64,000 bases of DNA from Haloactinopolyspora alba (GTDB lineage: Bacteria; Actinomycetota; Actinomycetes; Jiangellales; Jiangellaceae). The stretch's first letter is position 1. Each line of letters starts with the position of its first letter. Both the position numbers and the translations under genes were made by a program. The stretch is from contig NZ_PYGE01000025.1 in the NCBI RefSeq assembly GCF_003014555.1, positions 1 through 64,000 on the forward strand, given 5' to 3'. The notes beneath the pieces were generated by a model. That model was not told the origin of the DNA, did no database searches, and was given only the letters and a program-made list of their open reading frames with translations. Shown in pieces: positions 24,024 through 44,297 of the stretch.

Positions 24024-24207
24024 GAGGGCCTCCTGAGTGCTCATGCCGTGTTTGCTCGGACGGGACGAGACTCGCGCTGTGTGGCCCTCACCGGAAGGCA
24101 CGATCACGGAAATGTGGACAACTCGGCGCTGCGCAGGGGCCTGTGGAAACCGGAGTCCGGCGCGGATGGACGGCGCCCCGGCACGGTTCGACGGTGGCCA
24201 TCACCAG

Positions 24208-24279
24208 GCGAGTGCACGCGTCACGAGGCCTGCAAGGGTGGTGACGCAGGGAATTCCATGCGGGACGTGATCATTCCCG
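24208..24279 (-). repeat. 72-bp structured intergenic repeat, copy 1
   Basis: This block matches the block at 34887-34958 (opposite orientation) at 68 of 72 positions without gaps. Read on the minus strand it contains an imperfect GCATGG-AATT-CCCTGC hairpin that overlaps a perfect 7-bp stem GCGTCAC/GTGACGC (24218-24224 and 24241-24247) with a 16-nt loop. It begins 6 nt after the stop codon of the GTPase gene 24286-25899, in the sense orientation of that gene. Confidence 0.85.
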
Positions 24280-24285
24280 AAGCGG

Positions 24286-25899
24286 TCAGGCGGAGCGGGC
24301 GCGGGCGAGTGCACGGTGGAACTGGCGGAACCGGGAGACCTCGGTGTCGACGGGCTCGACGACGACCTCGCCGGCGGTGCGCTCGACCACCTCGTGCAGC
24401 GTCTCCCGCACGGCCGCGGCCTGCCGGTCGGCGCCTCGCCGCGCCGCCACGAGGCCGCAGACCCCGACGACCCAGCCGACGAGGACACCTGCGCCGATGA
24501 CCAGCCACGGCAGCGCCACCCCCGCGACGTCGACAGCCGGCAGGTCCAGGCGCAACGCCTCCGGGCCCGCGGTGGTCAACTGCCATCCGGCGCCGGCCAG
24601 CACCGTCAGCAGCGCCGTCCACTGCACGAGGTTCAGCGTGCGCCACCACCCGGGCCGGGTTCCGATCCCCAGATCGGCGGCGGCCACGGCAGCGTCCAAT
24701 GCATCCGGGAACCGCTCGGCCGACGTCGCCGCGACGGCGCGCACGCTGTCGCGCCACGGCGCCGGCGTCTCGGACGCGGCGGCGTCACCGAACTCGCGCA
24801 CCGCCGTCGCCGCCCGGGCACGCTGCACCGAGGTCGGTTCCGGCAGGCCGGCGCGTTTCGCCTTCCGGCGCAGCCGCGAGATCCACCGCGTGGGCAGCCA
24901 GCCGGTGCTCGCACGGGCACGGAGCAGAAAGGAGCGCCCCGCCGCCCCGGCGACGACGTCGGCGCCGGAGGCCTCGAACAGCGAGTCGACCAGGCGCTCC
25001 CGGTCGGCCCCGGAGGTCGTGCTTCCGCGCGAGTCCTCCCGTGCGTCGTCCGGCGGCTGCCCGTCGACCCCGACCGCCACCGCGAACTGCTCCGCGATGG
25101 CCCGCGCGTCCGCCTCGGCCCGCTCCTCGACCGCACGGCGCTTGGTCACCGCGGTGCGGACCACGTCGACGAGCGCCTCGAGACCGTGTCCGGTCGCCGC
25201 CGACAACGGCACGATCGGCACGTCGGGCAGCCCGTCCTCGTCGAGAAGCGCACGCAGGTCGGTGACGCACTCGGCGACGTCGTCGTGACCGAGCCGGTCG
25301 GTCTGGTTGAGCACCACGACCGTCACCGCCTGGTGCGAGGACAACGGGCGCAGGTAGCGCTCGTGCACCGCGGCGTCGGCGTACTTCTGCGGGTCGAGCA
25401 CCCAGACGAACAGGTCGACCTGCTCGACCAGCCGGTCGACGGACTCGCGGTGCTCCTCGTGGGTGGAGTCGTGGTCGGGCAGGTCGAGCAGGACCAGCCC
25501 GTCCAGGTCGTCGGCCTCGCCGGAGTCGAGCACGCTCTCGCGCGACAGCTGCCGCTGCTGCGGCACGCCCAGCCATTCCAGCAGCGGCACCACGCCCTGC
25601 GTCCCCCACACGCACGCCATCGGCTCCGACGTCGTCGGCCGGCGCACGCCGACGCGCGAGAGGTCCATACCGGCGACCGCGTTGAACAGCGACGACTTCC
25701 CGCTGCCGGTGGCGCCCGCGAGGGCGACCACGGTGTGCTCGACCGACACCTCGCGACGCGCGCCGGCGTCGTCGAGCGCCGCCTGCACCGGCTCGGTGAG
25801 CTCGGCCGGCACCCGCCCGGCCGCGGTCGAGAGCACCTCCTCGAGCGCGCGCAGCCGCTGCGGAAGACTCACCCGTTCACGCTGCGGCCATGGCGTCAT
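24286..25899 (-). CDS. Dynamin-like/YfjP GTPase with C-terminal membrane helices
   Basis: A 537-residue protein. The P-loop is AGATGSGKSS at 61-70, switch I RRPTTSEP at 87-93, G3 LLDLPDHDS and G4 VVLNQTDRLG (a canonical N-x-x-D). Two hydrophobic helices near residues 425-445 and 455-485 (LPWLVIGAGVLVGWVVGVCGLVAA) suggest membrane attachment, and a helical tail follows. Its ATG overlaps the stop of the upstream GTPase by 4 nt. Such tandem GTPases near ssb/ettA occur in actinomycetes; their physiological role is not settled, but paired bacterial dynamins remodel membranes. Confidence 0.85.
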   Translation of the reverse strand: MTPWPQRERVSLPQRLRALEEVLSTAAGRVPAELTEPVQAALDDAGARREVSVEHTVVALAGATGSGKSSLFNAVAGMDLSRVGVRRPTTSEPMACVWGTQGVVPLLEWLGVPQQRQLSRESVLDSGEADDLDGLVLLDLPDHDSTHEEHRESVDRLVEQVDLFVWVLDPQKYADAAVHERYLRPLSSHQAVTVVVLNQTDRLGHDDVAECVTDLRALLDEDGLPDVPIVPLSAATGHGLEALVDVVRTAVTKRRAVEERAEADARAIAEQFAVAVGVDGQPPDDAREDSRGSTTSGADRERLVDSLFEASGADVVAGAAGRSFLLRARASTGWLPTRWISRLRRKAKRAGLPEPTSVQRARAATAVREFGDAAASETPAPWRDSVRAVAATSAERFPDALDAAVAAADLGIGTRPGWWRTLNLVQWTALLTVLAGAGWQLTTAGPEALRLDLPAVDVAGVALPWLVIGAGVLVGWVVGVCGLVAARRGADRQAAAVRETLHEVVERTAGEVVVEPVDTEVSRFRQFHRALARARSA

Positions 25900-34323: not shown

Positions 34324-34869
34324 ATGTCGCTGGAACGACCGACCGCCCCCGACCCGTACACCATGCTCCCGGCCGTCGCCGGCATCGATGTGCGCAGTGA
34401 CGACGTCGCCGACGGCCAGCAGCTGGCGACCGAGCACGTCTTCGACGACTGGGGCTTCACCGGCGGCAACCAGTCGCCGCAGCTGAGCTGGTCGGGCGCG
34501 CCCGAGGGCACCCGCAGCTTCGCCGTCACCTGCTTCGACCCGGACGCCCCCACGCCGAGCGGATTCTGGCACTGGGCCGCGGTCGACCTGCCGGTGACGA
34601 CGACCTCGTTGCCGCATGGCGCCGGCGCCGCCGACGACTCCGGCCTGCCCGCGCCCGCGTACTCGGTGCGCAACGACACCGGTTCCACCGGTTACAGCGG
34701 CGCCGCTCCCCCGCCCGGCGACGTGCCGCACCGGTACTTCTTCGTCGTGCACGCCGTCGACGTCGAGAACCTGGGCGTCGGACCGGACGCGACGCCCGCG
34801 GTCGTGTCGTTCAACCTCGCCTTCCACACCCTCGCCCGCGGCATGATCGTCCCCGTCTACTCCCACTGA
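34324..34869 (+). CDS. YbhB/YbcL family (PEBP-like) protein
   Basis: A 181-residue phosphatidylethanolamine-binding-protein fold. GGNQSPQLSWSGAPEGTRSFAVTCFDPDAPTPSGFWHWAAVDLP and the later GYSGAAPPPGDVPHRYFFVVHAVD are the two conserved anion-pocket segments. No signal peptide. The biological role in bacteria is unclear. GGAGG stands 5 nt before ATG 34324. A 72-bp repeat starts 18 nt after its stop. Confidence 0.88.
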   Translation: MSLERPTAPDPYTMLPAVAGIDVRSDDVADGQQLATEHVFDDWGFTGGNQSPQLSWSGAPEGTRSFAVTCFDPDAPTPSGFWHWAAVDLPVTTTSLPHGAGAADDSGLPAPAYSVRNDTGSTGYSGAAPPPGDVPHRYFFVVHAVDVENLGVGPDATPAVVSFNLAFHTLARGMIVPVYSH

Positions 34870-34886: not shown

Positions 34887-34958
34887 CGAGAATGATCACG
34901 TCCCGCATGGAATTCCATGCGTCACCACCCTTGCAAGCCTCGTGACGCGTGCACACGC
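34887..34958 (+). repeat. 72-bp structured intergenic repeat, copy 2
   Basis: The partner of 24208-24279 (68 of 72 identical, inverted). Here the first hairpin is the perfect palindrome GCATGGAATTCCATGC, and the second stem GCGTCAC/GTGACGC with its 16-nt loop is unchanged. It begins 18 nt after the YbhB stop in the sense orientation of that gene, the same relation as copy 1 to its gene. Confidence 0.85.
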
Positions 34959-35029
34959 CTAGTGATGGGGCAGCGGCTGGCGACGGGGCGGCGACGGCCA
35001 CGGGAGCGGGTCCGGCAGGATGGAGTCTC

Positions 35030-43067: not shown

Positions 43068-44297
43068 ATGGCGAGCATTCAGGAGCGCCCAGGAGCCTCC
43101 GGCAACACCTCGTACAGGGTCATGTTCCGCATCGACGGCAAGCAGACGTCCGAGACGTTCGAGGACCAGGCGACCGCGCTCGAGTTCGCCGCGCTCGTCG
43201 ACCAGGCCGGCGGCGCGTCTGCGCGCCGTATCCGCGACGCACGCAGCGGCGAGGGTGTTGCCGCGGGCAACATCCCGACCCTGCGCGAGTTCTTCGACCG
43301 GTGGCAGAAGACGCGCACCGATGTGACCGAAGGCACAATCGCCGAGGACGCCAGGATGGCCGGCCGTTCGTGGATGCCGGCGTTCGGGGCCTGGCCGATC
43401 GACACGATCCAGCGCGACGACATCACGGAGTGGATCCAGAAGCGGCGCTACTCGACCACGCAGCGCGGCGAGCGGATCAGGTCCAAGACCGTGAAGAACG
43501 AGCACGGCCTGTTGAGCACGGTACTCACCGCGGCCGTGCCGAAGCACCGACCGGACAACCCGGCCCGTGGGATCACCATCCCGGACGACGTCCAGGAGGA
43601 GATGGTTTTCCTCACCCAGGCCGAGTTCTACATCCTGCTCTCCTACATCCCCGAGTACTGGCGCCCGCTCGTCACCGTCGCCGCGGCGACGGGCTTGCGG
43701 TGGGGTGAGCTGACCGCGCTGCGATGGATGGACGTCGATCTGGTAGCCACTCCCCCGCGCCTGACGGTGGTGCAGTCGTGGAAGCGCGGCGCGACGACTC
43801 GCGTCATCGGCACGCCGAAGACGAAACGCAGCCGCCGCACCGTGTCGCTGCCGCCGCGGGCCGTCGCCGCACTTCAGCCGCTGCAGGACAGGCCGGATGT
43901 GCTCGTGTTCCGCGGGCAGAAGGGCGGGCGCGTGCATCACCAGAACTTCCACCCCCGCGTGTGGCACCGCGCCGTCGGGCAGGCCAACGACCCGCGCGAC
44001 AAGAACGGGACCGAGCTCGTCGACGCGCCGCGAATCACGAAGCGCCCCCGCATCCACGACCTCCGCCACTCGCACGCAAGCTGGCTCATCAACGAGGGCG
44101 TCGACCTGTTCAAGATCTCGCGGCGGCTCGGGCACGAGTCGATCCAGACCACGACGGACACCTACGGTCACCTGCTGCCGGACCACCTCGAGGTGACCGC
44201 GGCCGCGGCCGAGGCCGCGCTGACGCCGCCGCTACTCCCCTCCCGCACCGCCCTCGAGGCCGCCGACGAGTTCGTCGTGGTCGAGGTCGATGAGTAG
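43068..44297 (+). CDS. int: Phage tyrosine integrase
   Basis: A 409-residue site-specific recombinase. Residues 1-50 form the arm-binding AP2-like domain (SYRVMFRIDGKQTSETFEDQATALEFAALV), 65-165 the SAM-like core-binding domain, and 180-380 the catalytic domain. Catalytic residues: Arg211 in ATGLRWGE, His330 and Arg333 in HDLRHSHAS, His354 region in LGHESIQTT and nucleophile Tyr366 in DTYGH. It lies directly beside tRNA-His, its likely target. Start ATG 43068; an upstream GTG at 43047 is in frame but less likely. Confidence 0.95.
   Translation: MASIQERPGASGNTSYRVMFRIDGKQTSETFEDQATALEFAALVDQAGGASARRIRDARSGEGVAAGNIPTLREFFDRWQKTRTDVTEGTIAEDARMAGRSWMPAFGAWPIDTIQRDDITEWIQKRRYSTTQRGERIRSKTVKNEHGLLSTVLTAAVPKHRPDNPARGITIPDDVQEEMVFLTQAEFYILLSYIPEYWRPLVTVAAATGLRWGELTALRWMDVDLVATPPRLTVVQSWKRGATTRVIGTPKTKRSRRTVSLPPRAVAALQPLQDRPDVLVFRGQKGGRVHHQNFHPRVWHRAVGQANDPRDKNGTELVDAPRITKRPRIHDLRHSHASWLINEGVDLFKISRRLGHESIQTTTDTYGHLLPDHLEVTAAAAEAALTPPLLPSRTALEAADEFVVVEVDE

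Follow-up and report, generated by a model that had tools for sequence, protein, structure and literature searches.

The REP repeats of the GTAG and CGTC super-families are high-copy palindromes of 20-40 bp that carry a tag at one end (PMC3733652). Singly or paired in inverted orientation, they are found mainly 3' of genes, where the neighboring ORFs run in tandem or converge, and those of the CGTC super-family have no dedicated transposase (PMC3733652). The YPAL/RU-2 and ERIC/RU-1 elements are small, palindromic, MITE-like intergenic repeats that fold as RNA, and for YPAL an effect on how stable the transcript upstream of it is has been proposed (PMC2229807).

In the following, we describe a repeat of the actinobacterial family Jiangellaceae, two copies of which lie in the window, i.e. 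the whole stretch of 64,000 nucleotides of Haloactinopolyspora alba DNA that was analyzed. It resembles the REPs in its high copy number, its fixed tag at one end, its occurrence as singles and inverted pairs, and its intergenic location 3' of genes, and it shares with the CGTC REPs the absence of a dedicated transposase. The near-invariant tag, however, is AATGATCAYGT rather than GTAG or CGTC, the unit is ca 77-86 nt long instead of 20-40, the spacing to stop codons is tight, and the TGA of the element itself is reused as a stop. With YPAL and ERIC it has in common that it is small, palindromic, MITE-like, intergenic and folds as RNA, but it has no apparent target duplication, a different sequence and a host of another phylum, and its orthologous sites are partly common over the distance of a genus. 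Despite these likenesses we do not file it in the REP or YPAL/ERIC families, since it carries neither the GTAG nor the CGTC tag and no RAYT accompanies it in 22 Jiangellaceae genomes. We regard it as a new lineage within a familiar type of repeat and not as a new kind of system; a literature search did not find the family described. We will argue that, with a probability of roughly 55%, it is a REP/MITE-like dispersed palindromic family that serves as a portable gene-end hairpin, that is, as a terminator or as a barrier to 3' exonucleases.

The initial annotation of the window had reported a 72-bp structured repeat in two copies, matching at 68 of 72 positions without gaps, and blast returns the same figure (94.4% ungapped identity). 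The hairpin GCATGG-AATT-CC(A/C)TGC and the stem GCGTCAC/GTGACGC that it named are both present, with two bases common to the two, and its starts indeed fall less than 20 nt past a stop codon (6 nt for copy 1 and 17 nt for copy 2). Its bounds, on the other hand, have to be moved. An alignment of 42 genome copies shows a conserved unit of ca 77 nt that begins AATGATCACGT and ends CCTNGTGAYG; the unit therefore starts 4 nt inside the annotated 5' end, at AATGATCACGT, and extends ca 9 nt beyond the annotated 3' end, to CCTNGTGATG. With the corrected start, the distance from stop to tag is 10 nt for copy 1 and 21 nt for copy 2. Along the coding direction of the upstream gene, each of the copies has the order AATGATCACGTCCC-GCATGGAATTCC(A/C)TGC-GTCACCACCCTTGCARGCCTC-GTGACGCGTGCACWCGCCTRGTGATG. 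Pfam also agrees with the earlier naming of the two upstream genes. The features are as follows, with the bounds of the units taken from the 42-copy alignment and model R1.

24199..24275, minus strand: copy 1, full unit, 77-nt core (model R1, 83.1 bits; a few more 3' nucleotides may belong to it)
24265..24275, minus strand: copy 1, 5' tag AATGATCACGT, containing TGA; near-invariant in 47 aligned copies
24246..24261, minus strand: copy 1, hairpin 1, GCATGGAATTCCCTGC (from the sequence; helix columns 16-20/25-29)
24218..24247, minus strand: copy 1, hairpin 2, GCGTCACC...GTGACGC (from the sequence; helix columns 30-41/46-57)
24199..24208, minus strand: copy 1, 3' boundary motif CCTGGTGATG (alignment conservation), mostly beyond the interval first annotated
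24286..25872, minus strand: gene upstream of copy 1, dynamin-like GTPase (Pfam Dynamin_N/MMR_HSR1); 10 nt from the end of its TGA to the tag
34891..34967, plus strand: copy 2, full unit (model R1, 86.1 bits)
34891..34901, plus strand: copy 2, 5' tag AATGATCACGT (sequence, tag scan, alignment)
34905..34920, plus strand: copy 2, hairpin 1, GCATGGAATTCCATGC (sequence, fold)
34919..34948, plus strand: copy 2, hairpin 2 (sequence, pair counts)
34958..34967, plus strand: copy 2, 3' boundary motif CCTAGTGATG (sequence, alignment)
34324..34869, plus strand: gene upstream of copy 2, phosphatidylethanolamine-binding protein, PEBP (Pfam PBP); 21 nt from the end of its TGA to the tag

A scan of the window with model R1 finds these two copies only. 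The window also contains what appears to be a prophage at tRNA-His (42895-63998), which extends past the window end; a tyrosine integrase (43068-44297) after the tRNA-His is accompanied by an SNF2-like helicase, small and large terminase subunits and an SPP1-like portal, and the model scan places no copy of the repeat in this region.

The genome of 5.5 Mb holds ca 80 copies of the repeat. Searched by blast against its own assembly, copy 1 gives at least 40 copies with E<=4e-19, and the tag pattern AATGATCAYGTNCNNCA has 80 exact matches as compared to 0 for the reversed-pattern control. These two results place the repeat far beyond chance. A known RNA family was rejected, as Rfam at gathering score finds only two tRNAs in the window and, even at E<=10, nothing across copy 2. 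A plasmid or phage origin was likewise rejected, with no match in the plasmid or phage collection; a scan of viral contigs with a short 17-mer (14 specified bases) returned 114 stretches, which are taken as chance matches. The GTPase protein was also scanned against named genomes, and no relative was confirmed among them.

The position of the copies relative to genes is the central piece of evidence. Genes around the fetched copies were called with a purpose-written simple codon-usage caller, for which stops are reliable and starts approximate. When the 11-nt tag is counted in the loci fetched from the same genome, allowing up to one mismatch, 93 matches are obtained. Of these, 70 face a stop codon and 21 a start codon; for one, the fetched DNA contains no neighboring gene, and the remaining one falls within a gene. 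This last match (L383:2205, ACTGATCACGT) is a one-mismatch chance match with no element behind it, and the number of repeat copies inside genes is hence zero. The distance from tag to stop has a median of 10 nt and lies between -5 and +26 nt in 65 of the 70 stop-facing cases. When each copy is re-placed in its own intergenic gap with random orientation, a close stop-facing arrangement (<=26 nt) is obtained for a mean of 30 copies and at most 40 in 2000 runs, as compared to the observed 62 of 88. Orientation gives a weaker signal than distance, with 67 of 88 facing a stop against a simulated mean of 59. In gaps between tandem genes, 32 copies are in sense and 16 in antisense (p=0.03), and several of the copies are palindromic.

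The relatives behave similarly. In the Jiangella set, which consists of loci from the tag pattern, mostly of Jiangella asiatica, and includes a few chance loci of other bacteria, 102 of 151 tags face stops, the distances have a longer tail (median 27), and tandem-gene gaps hold 32 sense and 14 antisense copies (p=0.01). In other relatives the count is 47 of 61. The fixed relation to upstream genes that was initially claimed thus holds, genome-wide and in relatives, for adjacency to the stop codon and for its tight spacing, but the orientation is biased only about 2:1. Copies in coding sequence or in random orientation had been named as evidence against the claim; none is found in genes, and the orientation is biased, though not fixed.

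In 19 of the 70 stop-facing cases of this genome the stop codon of the gene is the TGA of AATGATC, i.e. it is supplied by the tag. The Jiangella set shows this in 20 of 102 cases and the set of other relatives in 9 of 47, and in L383 a single 44-bp palindrome provides the stops of two converging genes. Proteins that terminate in the tag mostly end within a few residues of the C-termini of their orthologues, which indicates that the element is located where the gene natively ends and does not truncate it.

The repeat occurs in several forms, namely the asymmetric unit, a 44-bp palindrome, an 86-bp palindrome and inverted pairs of ca 189 bp. The 44-bp palindrome of L384, for example, has a 20-bp stem with a folding energy of -35.3 kcal/mol (z -10.6), and 86-bp palindromes are found in L022 (z -7.3), L068 and L075. 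Several inverted pairs of 189-190 bp have a GGCAAGCGCTTGCC-like center in genomes G007 and G009, and this central palindrome is common to pairs from different species (L073, L074, L045, L051, L053 and L056). At L393:2001-2077 and L022:2460-2545, the inner hairpin appears to have the reverse of its usual orientation, as though it had been turned around on the spot. TIR-like ends are present in the 44-, 86- and ca 189-bp forms and absent from the asymmetric form of the window.

As RNA, the asymmetric copies fold with a mean z of -2.8 relative to dinucleotide shuffles (n=72). The type found in the window (CCG type) is weaker, with a mean z of -1.95 (n=39 copies), and can be called moderately structured. 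The two window copies, folded as 85-mers, have z values of +0.8 and -1.45 and are not clearly better than shuffles. A hairpin directly after the coding sequence, as in an intrinsic terminator, is accordingly seen for the repeat family and is weak for these two copies. Excess structure is absent from the 70 nt downstream of the element (mean z 0.05, mononucleotide shuffles), and no second gene-end hairpin is therefore evident. No U-tract or T-run follows the hairpin at copy 2, and none is evident in the listed copies.

It is important to point out that intrinsic terminators of actinobacteria can lack the U-tail and consist of a GC-rich hairpin just past the stop without a T-run, and that ordinary terminators are not homologous to one another. 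The repeat is like these U-less terminators in its GC-rich hairpin just past the stop without a T-run, but differs from them in its conserved primary sequence. The earlier reading as an mRNA 3'-end element is supported, as far as position and structure can tell; the folds of the window copies are not exceptional. Such an element may act as a terminator, a processing signal or a stability signal.

Across genera, 47 sequences align without gaps over 77 columns with the near-invariant 5' tag. In two helices of this alignment 75.8% of the cells are paired, as compared to 27-41% when the helices are slid, and double changes number 72 where shuffling gives 37; the same counts would be expected from dyad symmetry of the DNA itself. 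Some pairs are compensatory (e.g. 18-27, 31-56 and 41-46). RNAalifold does not find a cross-genus consensus fold, and a cross-species mutual-information screen was set aside, as differences between species dominate it. A conserved structured RNA that is released from 3' UTRs by processing and acts in trans or in the manner of a riboswitch would fit the gapless alignment, the tag and the compensatory pairs. However, Rfam has no match, a common consensus fold is missing, the host genes are unrelated, and dozens of near-identical copies exist along with palindromic variants, so that we regard this option as very improbable. Another option is a protein-binding site at the DNA level (nucleoid or gyrase, as proposed for enterobacterial REP/BIME), which is kept between genes where promoters are undisturbed. 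The perfect dyads TGATCA, GGAATTCC and CCTGCAGG do recur in the element, and a species-specific consensus could mirror co-evolution with a binding protein, but such a site leaves the stop spacing of 0-26 nt and the reuse of the TGA unexplained, and we consider it improbable.

The genome of the window belongs to another genus of Jiangellaceae than Jiangella. The scan with the tag pattern was positive for J. asiatica, J. rhizosphaerae, J. ureilytica, J. endophytica and J. aurantiaca. Covariance-model matches, whose counts are inflated where palindromic copies match on both strands and for which scoring stops at 150, occur in 18 of 22 Jiangellaceae genomes and in all six genera; three species of Jiangella and one of genus g6 have none. 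The number of tags per species ranges from 80 to 268 in some and is 0 in congeners. Outside the family, only three of 148 genomes drawn from the class gave matches with E<=1e-6. These three contain repeats of similar architecture (L436, L439, L446 and L448 in G070; L435, L438 and L445 in G048; L437 and L440 in G113) whose tag is TTGACCACGT or closely resembles it, and several of these repeats lie 3' of genes; an 88-bp palindrome is found in L446. The TTGACCACGT-type repeats, found in two other actinobacterial families, are probably relatives of the Jiangellaceae repeat.

We now turn to the comparison of orthologous gene ends. Between G000 and J. asiatica, with pairs defined as reciprocal best matches among the fetched loci, the element is present at both ends in 6 cases, at one only in 9 (3 and 6) and at neither in 33 (Fisher p 0.004). 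The complete genome G013 has two clear elements and one relic at 13 orthologues of element-bearing genes, as compared to 2 of 12 controls. Taken together, the sharing in the first comparison and the weak second one indicate that sites are partly shared, with much turnover. Elements at shared sites are mostly no more similar than is general between the species (e.g. 0.59-0.64 vs a mean of 0.55-0.58, the means being those of species pairs other than the ones with J. asiatica), with exceptions of 0.87 and 0.82 within Jiangella. The 3'-end element is thus kept at some orthologous genes across genera, usually with the sequence typical of the species. Four such gene ends were inspected in Jiangella species devoid of the element, and one of them has, at the same place, an unrelated strong hairpin ca 10 nt past the stop.

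A bolder scenario is that of a dedicated stop-plus-terminator cassette in several actinobacterial families, in which the ends of the palindrome can carry the stops of both flanking genes, and which would be replaced or homogenized in place at orthologous ends by a process that does without a RAYT, be it gene conversion or a trans factor that co-evolves with the element. We hold this to be doubtful.

Mobility of the repeat is suggested by its dispersal and its patchy copy number. Unlike the RAYT-associated GTAG REPs, it has no Y1/RAYT transposase at its side: Y1_Tnp (PF01797) is absent from 22 of 22 Jiangellaceae genomes and present in 5 of 14 control genomes, and a RAYT-mobilized REP was rejected on this ground. 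Between 16 inward-facing tag pairs 400-4000 bp apart, translations judged by eye contain no transposase-like ORF; on this reading, the 16 intervals hold ordinary host genes or no called ORF, and an autonomous transposon enclosed by such copies was set aside. No target site duplication is apparent by eye in the inspected flanks, and a pair of empty and filled sites was not found.

The main rival is a purely selfish MITE/REP-like element without host function, for which the 3' position reflects target choice and the footprint of purifying selection. Such an element would insert in or next to gene-end hairpins, or survive only there. It would account well for a copy number that falls from more than 100 to zero within one genus, for the TIR-like ends, for the merely twofold orientation bias in tandem-gene gaps, and for the lack of sharing at the majority of the orthologous sites that were compared in G013. 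It does not sit easily with the very tight stop spacing, the use of the tag TGA as stop in more than a quarter of cases, the lack of excess structure left downstream, the sites common to different genera, or the fact that neither a target duplication nor a transposase was found. We judge it possible but rather unlikely.

The portable gene-end hairpin is favored by position, stop-codon reuse, palindromy and the lack of a second hairpin. The dispersal among species, the hairpin at the orthologous end of an element-free Jiangella gene and the significant site sharing were also counted for it. Counted against it were the missing T-run, the weak window folds, the lack of a consensus fold, the 2-3 of 13 sites in G013 vs 2 of 12, and the fact that no empty/filled site pair, target duplication or linked transposase was found. 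In this mechanism, the upstream mRNA, or both mRNAs between convergent genes, would carry the element as the 3' end, and the palindrome in the RNA would fold to hairpins that stop RNA polymerase, block 3' exonucleases, or both. Copies would spread and be homogenized within each species by a route that does not involve a Y1/RAYT transposase of these genomes; copies arriving at transcript ends would be retained.

The repeat represents a REP-like actinobacterial family whose placement relative to stop codons is measured to the nucleotide and that lacks the RAYT which explains the GTAG REPs. With it, the idea that a dispersed repeat may act as a signal at gene ends can be put to the test, and its shared sites with species-specific sequence bear on how such repeats spread and stay alike.
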